NCBI GenBank assembly: GCA_022059125.1
Contig: JAEUWY010000001.1
Span: 2,418,001-2,482,000 of the forward strand
Reading direction: 5' to 3'
From: Corynespora cassiicola
Lineage: Eukaryota; Ascomycota; Dothideomycetes; Pleosporales; Corynesporascaceae
DNA length: 64,000 bases
Shown here: piece after piece, positions 39,694 through 51,700 of the stretch
How positions within the stretch are numbered: the first letter of the stretch is position 1
How the letters are laid out: the number at the start of each line of letters is the position of its first letter
Notes under the pieces: generated by a model
The model's database searches: none
Told to the model about the DNA's origin: nothing
The model's input: only the letters and a program-made list of their open reading frames with translations
Made by a program: the position numbers and the translations under genes

Positions 39694-40864
39694 TGTGCAC
39701 ATACACAACATCATTATCTATCGTTTCCTTTGCTTCCGCAACCACACCAGCAACCGACAAAGACTCTTCGCCTTGGAACGATTTCGCGCTCCTAGTATCA
39801 CCACCACTATCAAGCCAATAATCTTTTAAGCAATCCATATCTCAGCGCAGCAATGCAGGGCGCGTTTGGTGTACATGAAGTTTTTCAGACCGGGCATGGA
39901 AGGGAAAATTCTACCCAATATACATACTGTTTTTTTTCTCATTGCTCTTCTTCAACGCACACCCATATACCACAGTTCTGCCTTTTATGGGTTGTCATTT
40001 GAGGGGGTTCTATGGTGTTGGGGAAACGGAAATGGCGGGCGATCAAACCGGAACAAGGGCATGATATCCGTGGCGTTTCTCCCTTTTTTATTCTCTCTAT
40101 TCGAGATGTGTATGTGTTCTTCGCTGTTCCTTTTCTTTTTCCTGATATGGGCGAAGAGATGGCGGGAGGGGAGGGGAGGGGATGGGATGGGATGCATGTA
40201 CTCTGGATGTTGGTGGTGTTTATGTTTGGAAATATGAAGAGGAAAGGTGTATGGGTGTGGTCTCATTCATCTGCTTCTCAAGTGTCGTTTTTTTCGTCTT
40301 TGATTTCATTTTGCAGGCGGGTCCAGCTTTTTTTTTTGGGAGGGGAGGGGGGGGGGGGGTGAATGGTTTTTGGTGCTGTTGTGGGATGTGGAGGATTGAG
40401 ATTTGAGGGTGTGCGGTGTGCGGTGTGGTAGGGAGCGGGAGAGTCTGTGCTTCGTCCTAATTGTTTTCTTGCATGGAAGGAGTATAGAGGGAGGCTCCGT
40501 TGCGGTTCGTTGATGATGATGTCTCCGATTTCTAGGGGAGGTTGGAGGGTGAGTTATAGCGTGCGAGCAGGCGTGTATGTATTATAGCCACTCTTATGGT
40601 GGACAAGTGGAAAAAAATATTTTTTACATGAAAGATTTTACTATAGGCCTGGAAGTGATGTAGTTTGGGCATTGTTATTGGGGCGAGTAGTGGGCTAGAT
40701 GGAGACATTTGTTGCTACACAGGTTGCCTTTGATAGTTTACAGGTACATAATGAATTTCCAAATTTGCACTTGTATCCTAATATATTTTTGAGATAGAGA
40801 CTATACACTATGTGTCTGTGGTGGAACTCCTGAGGTGGATAGCTTCAGATTTGGTTATTGACCT
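39694..40864. other. Intergenic with poly-T/poly-G tract
   Basis: 3' flank of SNT1 and of the TPR gene (convergent). The plus strand is T- and G-rich from 40020 to 40640. A T run (40328-40337) leads into GGGAGGGGA and then thirteen G (40347-40359), which could form a G-quadruplex. A 123-aa plus-strand frame at 39866 is hydrophobic low-complexity sequence and is not supported as a gene. Confidence 0.5.
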
Positions 40865-43800
40865 CTACGAACCATGTAAGAGCATTCCACGTGTGTAATC
40901 GAGATTTTCTTCCGCGATCCTGGTATCCGGGTGTTCTTCTCCTAACACACGCCGTCTGCATATTAACACATTCTCTTCCAGTAGCGCCGCGTCGTGCCAT
41001 CTGCCTGTAAGACTCAGGGTTGCTGCATAGTTTCCGATACTTGTCAGCGTATCTGGATGATCTCTGCCAAGCTCTTCTATGCTCCTTTCCATGACATCTC
41101 CTTCAAGTTTTTCGGCCTCGATCATCTTCCCCTGGGCTTTCCGGATCAAAGCTAGATTTGCTGTGCTCGCCAGGACATCCGGGTGATTTACTCTCAAAAC
41201 CATCAAGCTCTTTTCCAGTACCTGGGCAGAGAGGTCTGCAGCTTCTTCAAGCCTACCCAAGTTCCGATACGTTGCTGCCAGGTTATCCATAGTCGTCAAA
41301 GTCTCAGGATGACCACTCCCTAAGATCACTGAGCTAGCTTGGATGACTCTGATATTCATAGTCAAAGCCTGCTCGAACTGTCCCAGATTGCGTAATATTT
41401 CTGCATAGTTGCTCATCATCGTCAAAGTGTATGGGTCGTTTCTTTCATATATCGGTTCGCTTAGCCTTAATGCCTTCGTTATCTTAGCTTCTGCTATAAG
41501 ATAACTCCCTCGACTTCGCAGGATGTTAGCCGATAGAGCCTGACTTTCCACAATAAACCCCGTGAACCAGCTTTTAACAGGAGCAACACTCTCTTCATAG
41601 TACTTCTGTGCTTCTTCATATCTTCCAACTGCTAGTAAACACTCCGTATACATGATCATTTCATTTAGCGTAGGATATGGCTCTTGTCCTAGGCCAAGAA
41701 CAGGACATGGTGGGCCCATGTGATTCAACGCAGCTAGATACTTTCCATCAAAGTAGAGAATTGATGCCACGCAAGTAGCTACTGAGATTATGCTCGCTTC
41801 CTCGGTAGCTGATCCAAAATCCACATTCTGGAGTTGAAGAGTGGCTTCTGTCGCTTCAGAATACTTTCCTCGAAACTGCAAGGTCATAGCAAGATAATAC
41901 AAAAGATTTGTATCTTGTGTTTCAGATCTTGGTCGAGTATATTTGGTAGGCAACAAATCTATTGCCGCCCGAATCCTAGATTCTGTAGCTTCATGGGCGG
42001 CTGGATTCCTTCTAACCGCTTCAAGGTCAATGTCGAAAATCTCGGTATTCCATTCCGTCTTTTTATGTTCAAGATCATCTTCTGAATGTCAGTTTTCATT
42101 TAGAAAGCAGGGTTTACAGATGTTTACCTAAATCATTCTCGGTTGAACGATCGTCGTACTTGAGAGAACCTTCATTTCTTAGGTTTTCCAGCTCATGTGC
42201 AATGGATTCATTTGAATGAATTGAAGACTCATCACCGGTCTCATTTTCTTCGGCGAAATAATCGTTGAAGTCAAAGTAATGATTCCTGGGAGTTATTTCA
42301 GCTTTAGCAGGGGGCGGTGCATCCTTCTGCTCCTCAGATGATAACTCATATCTTGTCAGCCATTCTTGTGTTTTTGCTGTGGCAATCCTCGTACGCTCAT
42401 TGTCGTTGTTTGTGTCATCTGGAGCCCATGGCAAAGATCTGAGTGAAAATTCATGGACTTCTTCAGCTATGTGGTCAATCAATGCTTCGCGATGGTCTCT
42501 TCCTTGCTCAGGGCTCCATTCATTACATAATGGACATGTAGTTACTTCGTTCGGTATTTTTCGCATGCAAGCAGCTTTCAGAATTGGAATCTGACTCGCT
42601 GAAATGGCATTAGAATGCTGGCTTTGCATGTGTACGACAAAATCTTCTTCTTCCACGAAATTTATGGTGCTGTCGCATGCAAAACATACCCAAGATTCGG
42701 AGATTGGGTGGTCTTCTAGAAGATGCGACTTCCATGATTCTTTTGTAACGTAGAGGGTGTTTGGAACAGGGCAGTTGGGCAGAATACAAGTGTATGGTGA
42801 GACATCTTCTGCAATGTGCTTTCTATTTATAAGTAAGCGAGGATACTCAAAGCCAGTGCTAAAGTGCGGGATTAGACGTCACCAGACCCTATCTACGCAC
42901 TGCATACATGTAAGGGAATATCCTACCTCCATCTGTTTTTCTGAGCATAAGCGGTTGCAATGACTTGACAACAGCATGGACATCTGAATCCAACTCTATC
43001 TGAATTTATCTTGGGGGGGCATGGATAATTAAGCCGTACAGCTGTCGCGGATATTTGTGTGGTTGCAGCCTGTGATGGAGCCACCGCATTCGATAGCTGG
43101 ATATCTTCCACTAATATCGTTGCGCTACTTTGTGTACTTGCTTGTTTCGTAGCTCTCTTCTCTCCAGTTACTAAGATTGGTGTTGAAGACACATGGTTTC
43201 TTAGTGCTGTGCCCTTTTGAATAGGAACAGCTTGGGAACTCCGCTCTTCTGTGAAGAAGTCTGTACAATCTCCCAGTGTGCCCAGCTTCTTCTCATGTGT
43301 TTGTGCGTAAATGAATCGATTTCGGCGCCTCAGATTACAGTTGATCAGGCGAATCTGGATATCGTTGAGTTTGTGCGAATTGATCTCGGCTGGATCAAAT
43401 GAGGTCTGGGAGCTAAATTGACCTTTACACAGCAATATCGTGGTAAGATGATCTCGGAGGTCGACATGATCATCTAACTTGAATCGCTGATCAGCCTTCC
43501 AGAGCCTTCGGCTTATTCCAGATCGGCGTATCGCGAATGATATCCGTGACAACTGTTCTAGCAATGCCTGAACTTTCCTCATGCTAGCTGATACTGATTC
43601 ACTTAATTCTTCTACTGAGAAATCTTCAAGTTCAGACTCGGAACTCGATGCATCTGACCAAGGAGAGACGGGGCGTTGTTCATGTTCCCTTTCTTCGTCT
43701 TTTGACTGACTGAACGCCATGGCTTGCCCATTAGATGATAGACCGAATAGATCTGACTCCATAGAGCTTGCTATAATCAGGATCAGTCATGTTCCACTGT

Positions 43801-44088
43801 TGGGCCAGCTTCATAGATCATACCAAGGCTAATGCATTTATCAACCATGAATCTCAACACCTGTAGTAGATTCACTACTGTATCTCTGATCTCCGGTTTT
43901 AGTGCCAACCGCGCATCTAGCGATAATTTGTTATTTGTTCGAGCACCGATTCCAGCTGCCCACATATTGAAATCAGCCAAGCGATTCTCAGCCCATTCAT
44001 TCTTCGCTAGCTCTTCGGTCCTCCGAGCTTCTTCAAAACTGTATTGACATGCAGAAGCGGCATAAAAAATCGATTGTCTCTGGTCCAT
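40865..44088 (-). CDS. AcuF-like zinc-finger protein with C-terminal TPR repeats, 1006 aa
   Basis: Four exons, 44088..43824, 43770..42927, 42822..42128 and 42081..40865; all phases close. Residues 1-90 form the fungal helical domain with the signature WAENRLADFNMWAAGIGA. Residues about 90-340 are linker. About 345-470 is a Cys/His-rich region (FRCPCCCQV, RWRKHIAEDVSPYTC, SWVCFAC, TTCPLCNEW, HREALIDHIAEEVHEFSL) that matches what I know as the AcuF-like C2H2 zinc-finger domain. A Glu-rich linker follows, then from about 640 to the end tetratricopeptide-type repeats of the kinesin-light-chain/NLR class (HPETLTTMDNLAATYRNLGR, HPDVLASTANLALIRKAQGK, HPDTLTSIGNYAATLSLTGR). There is no nucleotide-binding domain. 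The start codon is 209 bp from that of the divergent protease gene, and codon use is AT-richer than in SNT1. Inferred role: sensor or scaffold in the adjacent cell-death module. Confidence 0.85.
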
Positions 44089-44297
44089 GATGAATACGTG
44101 TTAGGGAATGGGCAGTTGTAGAAAAGTCATCCTGATTGCAGTCAAAGGATCGGCTGATTCTTTGTCAGCGCAAATGTGCGGGGCTAATCCATATCACGTG
44201 AGCCCAATTAGAGTTTGTGATTAAGCGCCGTATAGAGATCATCACGAGCACTGGGAGGCTGCCTTACACCTATTGTACTGTGATCCAACTGATTGAG
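44089..44297. promoter_or_regulatory. Shared divergent promoter of the TPR and protease genes
   Basis: Only 209 bp separate the two start codons, so promoter elements must be shared or interleaved. This suggests coordinated expression of the two proteins. No individual factor site can be named; a CACGTGA element (about 44196-44202) contains an E-box core. Confidence 0.5.
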
Positions 44298-47187
44298 ATG
44301 GACAATGAGGAGGTGCTTGAGCTTGCCCCGGTGGCTATAGAAAGAGTTGCCCATATTGCGACACATATAGGAGCGACGAGGCTGAACGAAGTATGTGGGC
44401 GACTAGGCGGAGAATTGTTGATCGCAGCAAGCTTCTTGGGCAGTCCAGAGCAAGAAGTCCACGAACAACATGATCGATTCCTTCAAACAACTCGGAAGCT
44501 ATTAAGGGATGTTGAGAAGATATGCAACGTAAGTGATATCTGTTTTTTACCCCCTCTCGATAGTACAAATCTGAACTACTATTTCATTTCTGCGAGGCAA
44601 CGCCGAAAAAACTATAATTTATACGACCGCACATTTTCTAATAGAAACAGTGGCCAAAAAATCCAAACAGCAGTCTGCCATTATTAAAATGTATTGGCTG
44701 GGGACATCCTGAAGAGCCTTTATACTTGGAGGCTGTTCAAGATATAAAGTCCGGCCTAGTTTCACTTACTGCGGGAAGCCCAAGGAATGCCGAAGAGTTT
44801 ATTTTGCATTTCAAGAGATACAACAAACGTTTTGGAAAACAGAATCTCGTCAACAATGAACCTAGTGGAGCTTCCAAAGTAATACCAGACGATCACGGCC
44901 ACGAGCTGACCATGGTTGCATACAACGTACTGCAAAAGCATATGTGTTGCGAATGCATGCGTTCGGATAATTTTAACCTTCAGAGACATGGTGCAAAGCT
45001 TCTCTTAAGGCCATCCCTATCTTTGAACACCAACGATGCCACCCAACTAGACCTTCTATTTTCTTCCAAAGCTTATAAGAGGATTGTGCCCACCGAACGT
45101 TGGCAAGACATTAAATTGGTCGTCCCACGGTAAGTTCTAAAATTGAAAAGACTCAAATTCATGCATGCCATAACTTCTCTTGTTTATCTTTTGTAACGTC
45201 ATACTGACTGTCTGACACTCTACAGGGAGGAAAAAACCTTAAAGAAGCAGAGAAAGAGAGTCAAATTCTGCGGTCATGATGATGCTACTATTGAGTTACA
45301 CCATCTCCAGATCACAGAGGAAGTGAAATATGGGCAGTTATGCAAGCTTATTTCCAATGACATCAACTCGCGAGTCTGCCTTACTATCCAGGATGAGAAG
45401 CTGCGGTTAATGGATCCTGAGCCATTGAAACAGATCATAGCAGACACGCCAAGCTTATCCCTAGCTACGTTGCTCCGGACATACCGTTTGTCTCAAAAGA
45501 TGAAAGCTGCACTCGCCTATACCATTGCTCACTCAGTCTGGAAGTTTTATGACTCAGATTGGATGAAAACTCGTTGGACGAGCGAAACAATACATTTCAT
45601 GAGAGAATCTACACCTCCATTGAATATGAATGAGCTAGGAATCTTTACTTCAAAGCCTTACTTCTCCGTTGATTTTGGAGCCGATGATGCCAACGCCTAC
45701 GAACACAGCACAATACGGGACGACTTACATAAATATCCTCGTGTGCGAGCTCTAGGAATCTTGCTAGTCGAAATTGGTGTAGGTTCAGTTCTACCGCGGG
45801 TCGAAGGGAGCCTCGATGACTTGTCGCAAATGGCCCAAACAAACAACTCGGAATGGATATGGGCGAACAAGTATTCTGAAAGTAACTGTCCGTGGCCAAA
45901 TTTCGATCTGGGAAGTTACAGGAAGGCAGTCAAAAATTGTCTAGATCCTCAGCGATTCCGACTTCCTCCCATATCTGGCGAGGATATGCCAGGTAGAGTT
46001 CAGCAACGTCGAAAGCTTCTTTATGAGAATGTTGTAGCTCCTTTGGATGAACTCATGAAAGGAACTGGATGGATGGAAGAGCTACAAACAATCGAACCTT
46101 TGAAAGAGACATCAAAATTGCAAATACCTGTACGGAATACGACACTTGACTCTCAGAGAACCTCAGACTCACAGGGCAGCACGAAGAGATCTTCTCGGCG
46201 CTGGTTGCAGAGAGTTAAGAATTTAACTAGAAATATTTACCAAAGCGTGGACATTGATTCTCGGCGACGCGTTCGTATCGCGATTTTAGATACCGGATAC
46301 GACCCTGGTGCTGAATTTTTCTATTCACCAATACGGTACGACCGCCTTGTGAAATGGAAAGACTGGGTTTCAGATAGCGTGGAACCTATCGATACTCATG
46401 GACATGGTACTCATCTCATCTCACTAATCATGAAAATTTCACCTGATGCTGAAATATGCGTTGCCCGAGTGGCAAAGGATCCTGCAGATCTTGACAATGC
46501 AAGCCAAAACGTTGCAGATGTAAGTTGCAATCCAGATCCCATTAGAGAAGGTATAAAGAACTTTTTTTTTCTCACATGTTCCAGGCAATCAATTGGGCCC
46601 AGGCCGAATGTAAGGCCGACATCATATCGATGTCGTTTGGATACGTGCATGACCAAGGCGTAATTAGCAAAGCTATCCGCACTGCCGTAAATGACCGAGA
46701 AGAATCCATTTTATTTTTCGCATCTGCAGCAAATTCTGGATCAAATGAGGAAGAGATGTTCCCAGCCTGTCACGAATGTGTGATATCCATACGTGGGACC
46801 AACAGCAATGGATCTTTCCAAGATTTCAACCCTCCTAAAGGTCCTCAGGAGCATTCAGTGTATGGGACTCTTGGACTGGAAGTTCCCTCATCGGCCTTGG
46901 CTCCCGAGTCAGGAGAGGTATATAAGAGCGGCACCTCGGTAGCCACAGCTATAACTGCTGGATTAGCGGGACTTTTTCTTGGCTACGTAAGCCAAAAACT
47001 CCGACAAGAAACATCCATCAGTGTGAACAGAAAGCTGCGCACCCGCAAAGGGATGCTGGCAATGTTTGACTACATTGCAAAGGATTCTCTGAGCACTGGT
47101 TACAAATATGTTGCACCATGGTTCCTGGAGGGAGATGAAAGGTACATATGCTCCATCTTCGAGGGAGCACTAGCTAGATTGCCCTAA
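44298..47187 (+). CDS. DUF7580-type N-terminus fused to a subtilisin-like (S8) serine protease, 868 aa
   Basis: Four exons, 44298-44528, 44651-45129, 45226-46519 and 46585-47187; phases close. Residues 1-110 form a helical N-terminal domain (MDNEEVLELAPVAIERVAH). Residues about 180-480 resemble fungal DUF7580 (CKLISNDINSRVCLTI, ATLLRTYRLSQKMKAALAY, YPRVRALGILLVEIGVG), a domain seen at the front of fungal STAND-like proteins. The S8 peptidase domain begins about 580 with the full triad: Asp592 in IAILDTG, His630 in HGHGTHL, Ser786 in SGTSVAT, with the oxyanion Asn region near FFASAANSGS. No signal peptide, so it is intracellular, unlike secreted subtilisins. This layout parallels HET-Q2, the protease that cleaves the gasdermin HET-Q1 in Podospora. 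Its stop lies 27 bp from the stop of the gasdermin-like gene. Start ATG 44298 is preferred; an upstream in-frame ATG at 44217 overlaps the shared promoter. Confidence 0.88.
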
Positions 47188-47214
47188 GATAAATGTTTGA
47201 TAAATGGCGTCGTT

Positions 47215-48102
47215 CTACGATCTAGGGGCGAATGAAACTACAGAGATGTAAGAGCCATCAATATTTACTGTCTTTGTTTCCAAACCCTTATTAGCTTCTT
47301 CAGCACGAAAGTCGGCTGCATGTACCATACCAGACGCAACATCTATTTCATCGTTGTCTTCTTCTTCCCCACTTTCTGAATCGGAGATACCTTTTTCTAG
47401 GAAGGCTGATTTATGACGAAACTCATCCACCTTCAAGGATTTGTTCCTCCATCCTCTCAACTCAATTTTGAGTAGTTGGTAAGCAAGAACTATGTCCTCG
47501 TTTGTATTCCACTGGTCACTTTCCATCGTTTCGTTGGCTGTCATGATATCTGCTCCAACTCCCACTTCCCCCACTGGAATAGGTATTGGAATCCCAGATC
47601 CGACACCAACTCCCATACTCTTTGAGTTCTCGCGTCTTGCGGAGAGCCCCTTGGCTATCTTCAGCCCTGTAACCATATAAACTGGCTGCCTTATTGCGAA
47701 ACCATCCGGCTTCATTATTGCACGAACTCTAGGATGCACGATTCTCGCCTTAATCTCCTTCACCCCCGGGTCGTTCACGAAGTATTCCGTGACCAAGGAG
47801 CTCATAGAAAATTCTGTAGCAGCATGAGAGCCTCGTTTATTGAACGCCGAAGCACCAACTATCTGCAGAAACTCCGTCCATAGGGAAAATCCCGTCTCGT
47901 GTGTGGATTCTCGCGCTATGCTTTTTTGGTTCTCGGTCACAGTTTCTATGCGTGGATATCGTGAAACAGCGTCTTCGTCAACGGTCGTGAGTACGCGGTG
48001 GGGCCGAAACGGGTCAGCAATGAGGCTGCCTAGGGCGAGAGGACCAGTTCGAGGCTTAAAAGTGAAATTTGGAGCGAGTAGATAGGTTGGATGTTGTGCC
48101 AT
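47215..48102 (-). CDS. Gasdermin-like pore-forming protein, 295 aa
   Basis: Intronless. Residues 1-45 read MAQHPTYLLAPNFTFKP, then LGSLIADPFRPHRVL, the opening I associate with fungal gasdermin-like proteins. A QPVYMVTGLKIAKG strand (140-152), a Gly/Pro-rich hairpin-like segment (164-183) and IVLAYQLLKIELRGW (204-218) follow the order of the animal gasdermin N-domain (vYvVtevl ... lAfrv.ql). After that come a short tail, an acidic stretch at about 240-253, and 40 further residues. In the known fungal case (HET-Q1, about 280 aa) a partner subtilisin-like protease removes a short C-terminal piece to release membrane-permeabilising activity and cell death. Size, tail and neighbour protease all fit. 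Start: an in-frame ATG at 48159 would add a hydrophobic leader that looks like a signal peptide, but gasdermins are cytosolic, so 48102 is chosen. Confidence 0.78.
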   Translation of the reverse strand: MAQHPTYLLAPNFTFKPRTGPLALGSLIADPFRPHRVLTTVDEDAVSRYPRIETVTENQKSIARESTHETGFSLWTEFLQIVGASAFNKRGSHAATEFSMSSLVTEYFVNDPGVKEIKARIVHPRVRAIMKPDGFAIRQPVYMVTGLKIAKGLSARRENSKSMGVGVGSGIPIPIPVGEVGVGADIMTANETMESDQWNTNEDIVLAYQLLKIELRGWRNKSLKVDEFRHKSAFLEKGISDSESGEEEDNDEIDVASGMVHAADFRAEEANKGLETKTVNIDGSYISVVSFAPRS

Positions 48103-48757
48103 GATGTGAAGAAGCAATAAGACTACGACAAGTGATCTCTTTGCAAAAGGTAACTTCAAGTTTATATAGGTGGTTGGGTGTTGAATTAGCCGCCCAGGTA
48201 GATCAAGGCAAATTGTGGCTGTGTCACAACACCAGGCGGCAACAGCGCACCGTAACCGAGCCCCTCACTGATAGCTGCCTAAAAACATGCTAAATTCCCT
48301 AAAGCATAGTTTTTCATCGACAATTTTGGTTAAAGGATTTTCTTTGCAGGCGTTAACTATTTTCTTCTTCTTTTTGTTCAGATGAAACAGGCCATTATCA
48401 ATAGAAAACATAGGCAACAGGTAGGCTAGCTGGGGACGATACGGTAACTCTGCACGAAACATCAACATATTGTTCTTCGTTGATCTTGTCAGAGGATAGA
48501 GAAAGCCTATCACAAATCAATGATACATCTTGAAAAGTACTTGGCCCTATTTGACATCACTATTGCCCCGTTCCGATGACAACGACCTTAAGGGGAGCCA
48601 CCACATAATGCTATCATAACAAAAGACGTGTACTCACTAATTCAGGTGCAAGGATTTGCATTGCCAACTAAATTCACCAACGCACTAAAAATACACTCCA
48701 CATGCGCAAGTTCGGATATAATCAAAGACGCAAGCCAGCTATTCTCCTTCCTCACAC
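48103..48757. other. Intergenic, right edge of the cell-death module
   Basis: AT-richer DNA upstream of the gasdermin-like gene and downstream of SEC8. An 82-aa minus-strand frame (48513..48265) has no family resemblance. No gene called. Confidence 0.45.
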
Positions 48758-51700
48758 TTAGTACATAAACTCACTGAGCTCCAACAGATGCGCATCAAGC
48801 TGTCTCCTAGCCTGCACACCCACCTCTCTCCTCTCGTCCTTCAAGCGCTCCCCATACGTCAACTCGAGCAAGTTCCTCACAACAGGCTCGCCAAACAAGC
48901 CCTTGGGAACGCCAAACTCATTCCCAAGCTCTCTGGCGCGGGTCACAATGGCATCGGGGCCTTCGATGAAGAGATCAAAGAAAAGGGCCGAGTAGGGAAG
49001 CTCGGCGCCTTCTTCGATATTCTTGAGGTTCTGCTGGAGCACGAGGATGTTGAGTTGCATTAGGTTGCAACCATTGTTGTTCATGGAGGTGATGCGTGAT
49101 GAGAGGGCAAGGAGGTGTCGGTCCATTAGTGGTGCGAGGCCAGAGGCGACGTGCAAGTATTGCGACGGTGGAATATAAGTTGAAACTTCTGTGTCGAAGG
49201 AGACGAGGTGGGAGTTGAGAGTAAGAATCGTAGGGTCTGGTTCATCCAAGACAGAGTCGAGCGTGTAAGTCTGTTTCACACTGGCTGAAAGGGAAGATAT
49301 TATTGTAGTGCGAATAGCAAGGTGAAGAGTGCGTAAAACAGTCGCCGACAAGCCTTGGTAGGACATGACAACCTGGTCAAATTCGCTGAAATATCGTCAG
49401 TTTGTAGCACAGTGACAATGTGATATCAACTTACGCAGCAGTTTCGGTGTTCAGCGGTAAATATACCGGAACTCCCTCTGTCCTAGGCTCTGTGGATGTG
49501 AGTAATGTCCAGCGTCTGTTGTGGCGCTGATTGCCTGGCTCAATTCGCGTAGAATCAGTTGCTCGGTCGCTGATGTATCGTAGATTCGCCACCTTAGTAG
49601 CGAGCCACTTCATACTGGTATATAGTAGACATAAGCAGTTGATGGTCTTCTTGTCTTGGATAAGGTCAGACTGCTCTAGAGGGTCTTTCTCGATCTCCGA
49701 TAATAATAGAGATATTTCCTTCTCCACGAGTTCCGGTGCTGTCTCGGAATCTGCTTCGAAGAGAGCCAAGATGGTCTCACCAATCTCGCCAGAATCCGCC
49801 CATGCGGCGGGCGCCCTCATACAACGACCACTTTGGGTAGCTTGGTTGCGGCTTACCAGAGCCTTGTACCACCCACTGCATTTGCTTGCATATGTAGTCA
49901 TTTGTGTTATGATCAACTGACTGAATGCTTGGTCATGAGGCAGGTTGTCTAACATTTTACAGAATGCCGTTATGAGGGTAAAGAACTTTGCAGTCCCCTG
50001 AAAGTGTCAGTATTATGGTGCGATGTAATAGGAGTCAATCTCACCTTGAAAATGGGTCTCTTGGAATAATTGGACCATTGGGGTTCCTGCTGGAATGCGT
50101 CCAGTTCAATGAAAGTCTGCGCGCACATCTCGATAAGCGTCTCATCCAATTGGGGGTGAAACACATTGACGAGGAAGTCATCTAGAAACGAAGTTAAGGT
50201 GCTCATCACAATATCTGAGCCCGGTGGCACAACCTCCTTGAGCCGGTTCAAGAAGTCCAGAGATGGTGGCAACAGAGTGCCCATATTGAAAACGCTTGGT
50301 TCAACCAGCAATTTATGACCGGTTGCACTACCGTCCAATGTGGCATTGTTGTTTGCTGCCACATCATCGGGCCTCTTCGAGTCCGACACAAGGCCGGGCA
50401 CTGAGGACTTCAGAATGAATTCAAGGTCCTCTCGTTCTTGTATGAGTTCCGCTGATTTAGTGTCCATGTCCGTCAGCTTGAACATTCGCTTATTCTTGTC
50501 TCGTGGGGCTCGTGAGAACACGCTTCCAGTGTAAGTCTGGCCTTGACCGCCCCGGTATCCCAGGTCGCCATCAGTGGCAAGGTAATCATGCAGAAGAGAG
50601 CGCATCTACAATGTTGGTCAACATTAGATCTCATGATACGGGCTTAGAAAACACACCTCGCTCTGGTATAGCTTCCATAATTCTTTAAACCCCCGCATCA
50701 ACGCGGCGCTTGACGAATCACGGATCCCTTCGCGACGTACAATGCCTGACACAACATCGTGGACTACGCGGTGACTTTCCGCTATAGCTTCAAAGCGGGC
50801 ATAGAGTGTCCACAGAAGGTCGTTGAGGAGCGCAGTGCGAAGCTCGTCACTCTCGGAGCCAAGGTTAGCTTTGCCGCCTTTTTTAGCAGCGTATGCGGTG
50901 ATGATGCTAGGGTGCCTTTGGGCCACTTCGTTGTTGGACTTTTCAACAACCTTGAACAATTCTACGGGCAGTCGCTGCTCAATAGTATCAATGGCGATTT
51001 CCAGACGGTTCATCTTGTTCAAGGATTCCACCACGAGCTGAATGTATTGGAACGTATCCGCTTCAGGGTTCCGGGGCGAATCATCGGTCATCTAGCAGAG
51101 TTAAGAAACGAAACCTTTGCATGATTTGAGGTTGACATACCGGTTCTGAAGTGTCTAAACTGTCCAAGAAATGGTATAGCATTCTTCCCCTCACATCGGT
51201 CTGCGCGCGCCCCGAAAGATCGCCCTTGGACTGATTTTGGGCATACACTTTCCACCTGTCGACGCAATATGGCGACTTGAGATAAAGATGGTTGTGGAGC
51301 TCTTCGATCAAAATATCTGTAAGCGAATGCTCTTGATTGCTGAGGTAGACACGCAAGTCGCTCAGAGCACCAATCTTCTCCATCTCCGACTTTCGTATCA
51401 TCCTCAACGCATCTTGCAATATATCGACAGCCGTCAGGAACCGCTTCTCGGATATGCGAGCTTCCAGCTTATCAGGGACAAGCTGCAACTGCTCGATGGT
51501 ATTCAACATCTGGATCATCTCATCATAGTTTTGGGATTCCGTCGCGAATTCCTTCAACTCTGGTTTGGTCGTTGACAGGTGAGATTTGGCTTGAGTTAGG
51601 GAATCCTTTAGGGTCCGAACACGGTGTTGAGACTGCTGAAGACTGGTCTGGATCTTGTGAAAGGTACCAATGGAGCTGTTAAATCCTTGGTGGTGTTCTA

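Follow-up and report, generated by a model that had tools for sequence, protein, structure and literature searches.

In a 64,000-nucleotide stretch of the Corynespora cassiicola genome (the window), we find a gasdermin gene lying tail to tail with the gene of an S8 protease, and the two very probably form a two-gene, pyroptosis-like cell-death switch made of a gasdermin and of the multidomain protease that would trigger it. An earlier note on this DNA had placed a gasdermin-like ORF of 295 aa at 48102..47215 of the minus strand, 27 bp away from a protease gene, and both the position and the spacing are exact: the protease stop codon ends at 47187, a gap follows (47188..47214), and then comes the stop codon of the gasdermin. 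In the mechanism that we propose, the gasdermin (P0001) would be a pore-forming protein kept inactive by its short acidic C-terminal tail, and its 868-aa neighbour would be a multidomain trigger, the helical and DUF7580 parts of which, the latter possibly kinase-like, may sense a signal. Sensing would release the subtilisin-type S8 domain, which would in turn cut the gasdermin at an A-F-L motif just before an acidic linker and remove a piece of about 60 residues, or 6.4 kDa. Once released, the basic N-terminal domain (residues 1-235, pI 9.3) could oligomerise in the plasma membrane and lead to cell death.

P0001 is a single-exon coding sequence of 295 aa (47215..48102, minus strand). A longer ORF exists in the same frame, but its start is only a TTG, and in the relatives inspected as well as in their consensus the start lies at, or a few residues from, the methionine of P0001. 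A total of 76 gasdermin relatives were retrieved at E<=0.01, and the best protein match, 97% identical along 86% of the query, came from C. cassiicola Philippines. We built alignment A1 from P0001 and 70 of these 76 matches, leaving out P0019, P0029, P0042, P0063, P0076 and P0077 as short or long. A profile search of the PDB with A1 recovered RCD-1-2 (E 1.6e-10), RCD-1-1 (E 2.2e-10) and the HET-Q1 pore (E 0.0011), and P0001 searched as a single sequence also recovered RCD-1-2 (E 0.003), so that the homology to RCD-1/HET-Q1 by which a fungal gasdermin is recognised is found here. The predicted structure was checked for a fold foreign to the family; it has the gasdermin N-domain fold and is nearest to gasdermins, with RCD-1 on top, in line with the call made in the earlier note. 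Confidence in this model is modest (mean pLDDT 67.5), and its nine Foldseek matches have low query-normalised TM scores (0.29-0.40) with an rmsd of 6.7-12.2 Å. By sequence and by fold, P0001 belongs to the gasdermin family. Pfam gave weak matches alone on this protein, with no gasdermin model among the 25 families listed for the 71 members; one of these matches, to a potato-inhibitor family (E 0.14), occurs in a single member of the 71 and is noise. Two of the relatives, P0024 and P0155, carry the public name 'aldehyde dehydrogenase, conserved site', which is probably a mistaken, pattern-based name.

The protease gene spans 44298..47187 of the plus strand. Its structure was predicted from splice motifs and reading frame and comprises four exons (44298..44528, 44651..45129, 45226..46519 and 46585..47187) separated by three GT-AG introns (44529-44650, 45130-45225 and 46520-46584); the spliced sequence, of 868 aa, aligns with its relatives across the exon junctions. 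The protein begins with a helical region (about residues 1-165; 44298..44914, with one intron inside), delimited from the model of a relative, P0083, that has six helices between residues 6 and 132. This is followed by a possibly kinase-like DUF7580 domain (residues 166-512; 44915..46051, one intron inside; PF24476, E 1.7e-30) and by a Peptidase S8 domain (residues 585-801; 46268..46983, one intron inside; E 3.6e-19). The catalytic triad, described as intact in the earlier note, is indeed complete: alignment A2, made of 26 of the 52 protease matches (E<=0.001, the last four being weak matches to other subtilases) and of the window's protein, places it at Asp592 (codon 46289..46291), His630 (46403..46405) and Ser786 (46936..46938), and these positions, together with the oxyanion N718, do not vary in any of the 27 sequences, the window's own included. 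In the broader alignment A3 (46 of the 52 matches, without P0123 and P0125-P0129), which holds several fragments, the Asp is found in 46/46 and the His in 44/46, and the Ser in 36, with other letters in 2 and gaps in 8. Judged from these alignments, the neighbour of the gasdermin is an S8-family protease with an intact triad, and it has the catalytic residues expected of the protease in the Q2L gasdermin-protease clusters of fungi. The likeness to HET-Q2 of Podospora anserina that had been suggested thus holds for the S8 family; it does not hold for the picture of a small HET-Q2-like enzyme, HET-Q2 being given as 388 aa (PMC10989679) against the 868 aa, with DUF7580, of the protein described here.

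The site at which the protease might act on the gasdermin can be predicted precisely, which makes it open to testing. The predicted recognition or cleavage motif is A233-F234-L235 (codons 47398..47406, minus strand), proposed from its conservation in A1 and from the analogy with HET-Q1: A-[FYLM]-L is found at this position in 67 of the 71 sequences, the exceptions being ACL, NFL, GFL and EFR. An acidic linker follows (residues 236-252; 47347..47397, minus strand), defined by its D/E count and by low model confidence, the pLDDT being below 50 over residues 220-250. In 70 sequences (P0002 was omitted because it ends in the linker), the 20 residues after L235 contain a median of 10 D/E with a minimum of 3, and more than 5 in 66 of them, whereas random 20-mers from the same proteins average 2.2, with the 95th percentile at 5. 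Beyond the linker, residues 255-291 (47230..47340, minus strand) are modelled as a short strand-helix-strand-strand segment, a putative inhibitory tail, with a block pLDDT of 74-78 up to residue 290; the relatives shown also have this segment, in variable form. The pI is 9.3 for P0001 up to residue 235 and 4.1 for the 60-residue tail. HET-Q1 (278 aa) likewise has a short C-terminal tail, and HET-Q2 is reported to cut it at a proposed aromatic P1 residue, F238, with the loss of 40 residues (PMC10989679). Because of this parallel, a cut at A-F-L after F234 or L235 is our best guess; the profile match to HET-Q1, itself weak (E 0.0011), ends before F238.

The pairing recurs in other fungi, as relatives of both genes lie together in several of them. 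Linkage was judged by eye, from an exact match of the listed longest-contig size and from gene numbers, which in some projects need not follow gene order. Nine of the 48 proteases considered (P0078-P0125) share an exact contig size with a listed gasdermin: those of Ophiocordyceps (XA68_17164/17161), Glutinoglossum (FGG08_005307/005308), Purpureocillium (JDV02_006159/006161), Trichoderma camerunense (248013/248018), T. ceciliae (378462/378459) and T. arundinaceum (TARUN_8912/8913), that of Aspergillus affinis, by contig match alone, and those of two contigs of 5,745 and 12,374 bases. The association of a DUF7580-S8 protease with a gasdermin is thus found in Hypocreales (Ophiocordyceps, Purpureocillium, Trichoderma), in Glutinoglossum and on at least one Aspergillus contig. 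The remaining 39 proteases have no partner among the gasdermin matches listed (the best 120 of 252, the entries being 90% clusters), and this is not a count of unlinked cases, since candidate numbers were capped and the clusters hide members. One counter-example was found in Aspergillus melleus, where N8T08_009507 and N8T08_007438 are on different contigs. The distances of the nine matched pairs and of the window's pair are correlated (r 0.774, 0 of 10,000 permutations as high), a correlation that shared host ancestry alone could produce. Synteny was also scanned for in viral contigs, where none of the 71 pattern matches was a relative. With 76 gasdermin relatives, 52 protease matches and linked pairs in other genera, the observation is not a chance one.

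The pair belongs to a class that is already known. About 1,900 fungal gasdermins have been counted in 400 genomes; about 80% of them cluster with protease genes, S8 in 60-63% and CHAT or another cysteine protease in 17-19%, and the proteases are of 18 architectures (PMC10197012, PMC12881547, PMC10989679). In these Q2L two-gene clusters, an S8 or CHAT protease gene lies within 10 kb of the gasdermin gene, here 27 bp away, and the Corynespora pair is a member from which nothing basic sets it apart. A CHAT-protease het locus has also been reported in Aspergillus fumigatus (PMC11138114), and reviews describe bacterial operons in which a short-tailed gasdermin lies beside a protease gene; the sequence similarity of a bacterial gasdermin to the A1 profile is only marginal (7n50, E 0.38). 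The earlier note had spoken of an undescribed member of such a system: the member is new, and a literature search for Corynespora and gasdermin returned, by title, only a CARD9 review, but the novelty of its kind had been overrated. Because reviews already describe gasdermin-S8 clusters as common, the pair is an addition to a known class, and it provides a well-supported example in a Dothideomycete. The signals detected by such sensors are named as a major open question (PMC12881547), and a pair that is present in one copy and has one sensor protein lends itself to asking what they are.

As to the role of the pair, it may act in allorecognition or in general defence. That the locus is a heterokaryon-incompatibility locus, at which strains would differ and, once hyphae have fused, the protease of one strain would activate the gasdermin of the other, seems to us rather unlikely. 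The precedent is het-Q1/het-Q2 in Podospora (PMC12881547), and the Philippines strain, the one other strain seen, could be read in this way: its gasdermin, P0002, has the annotation 'partial' and stops within the acidic linker, and the protease matches listed include none from this species, as a presence/absence polymorphism would give. However, 'partial' may reflect an annotation or assembly edge rather than a real polymorphism, and an unlisted protease is not the same as a missing gene. Moreover, het-Q1 and het-Q2 are described as idiomorphs (PMC12881547), whereas the two Corynespora genes are not alternative alleles, being both apparently intact, adjacent and tail to tail in one genome.

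It is very unlikely that the gasdermin acts without a protease, through partner variants as RCD-1 of Neurospora crassa does, and that the neighbouring protease has another substrate. P0001 is nearer to RCD-1, its closest solved fold and sequence, than to HET-Q1, and RCD-1 is reported to be activated by co-expressed allelic variants (PMC12881547). But RCD-1 is shorter (244-257 aa; PMC12881547) than P0001, with its 295 aa and 60-aa tail, and we infer from this length that it has no such tail. The DUF7580-S8 genes linked to gasdermins in other genera and the conserved A-F-L/acidic-linker tail also favour a protease partner.

The gasdermin was found once in the source genome (44.35 Mb, 23 contigs). 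Searches with P0001, P0071 and P0056 each return this locus alone, and when the six-frame ORFs of 25 loci, among them 11 stretches of 9.9 kb around other S8 matches, were searched with a profile, no second gasdermin came up (next best E 0.63); such searches could miss distant subfamilies or split genes. A second S8 gene resembling this protease (profile E 8.6e-41) lies some 15 kb into its contig (G000:C16:15201-15919; loci L012, L014 and L024), and the 9.9-kb stretch around it yielded no gasdermin. In a tree of 41 hand-chosen sequences, mostly with a named host, the gasdermins of the window and of the Philippines strain group with those of Fusarium and Ophiocordyceps and with two Trichoderma genes (8 rows, 98/98), apart from those of the Dothideomycetes Melanomma and Plenodomus. 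For the four rows from Dothideomycetes, the starred branches imply at least three label changes, where shuffled labels need 3.9 on average and 42 of 500 shuffles need no more than the tree does. A scattered phylogeny of the death-and-birth type has been reported for the family (PMC10197012) and agrees with this tree; horizontal transfer is possible. Least likely of all is that the cluster is a decaying relict with its function lost in this lineage: death-and-birth evolution, the single copy and the partial Philippines gene would agree with it, but both genes have open frames, with canonical splice motifs, an intact triad and family-conserved residues.

Gasdermin-controlling proteases of Q2L clusters may be fused to other domains, predicted kinase-like ones included (PMC12881547), and the helix-rich second half of the DUF7580 alignment is suggestive of a kinase C-lobe. 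Reading this alignment by eye for kinase motifs revealed no obvious HRD or DFG, and the 11 Pfam families listed for 46 protease members at E<=5 include none of protein kinases. The protease model searched with Foldseek was that of a relative. Searched whole against viral models, it gave 13 matches passing E 0.001, 10 of them named proteases or peptidase-inhibitor I9 proteins. From rank 16 to rank 50, 9 of the 35 rows carry a protein-kinase name, amid many unrelated rows of equal E-value; the best is a serine/threonine kinase at rank 16 (E 0.026, probability 0.97), and these are matches of the whole model, in which DUF7580 is one part among others. The PDB rows shown are all subtilisins and other subtilases, so that the absence of kinases from them is uninformative. 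A literature search for DUF7580 found no mention of it. We tentatively suggest, while leaning somewhat against it, a conserved single-chain trigger in which an N-terminal helical bundle and a degenerate kinase-like DUF7580 would directly control the subtilase that cuts the gasdermin at a fixed A-F-L/acidic switch. The DUF7580-S8/gasdermin cassette would then be a distinct and widely distributed class of sensor, in which a kinase-like receptor replaces NLR or repeat domains.

The pair and two further genes to its left are flanked by a Sec8 exocyst gene (Pfam) and by a long gene that we read as SANT-like. On the minus strand, two to three ORFs (42114-44088) that face the protease gene head to head look to us like one fungal zinc-finger-like gene; Pfam gave no match in the two pieces of them that were scanned. 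A TPR_10/TPR_12 repeat protein is encoded at 40865-41956 (minus strand, E 1.1e-37), two genes from the protease, and TPR motifs are reported as frequent in fungal gasdermin-controlling proteases (PMC12881547). The GC content is 44-47% in the part of the window that holds the pair (40001-50000), 54-67% in the 2-kb rows to its left, back to 28 kb, and 46-57% to its right. This low GC is not unusual, since similar low-GC rows are found at 12-14 kb and 20-22 kb in the window.
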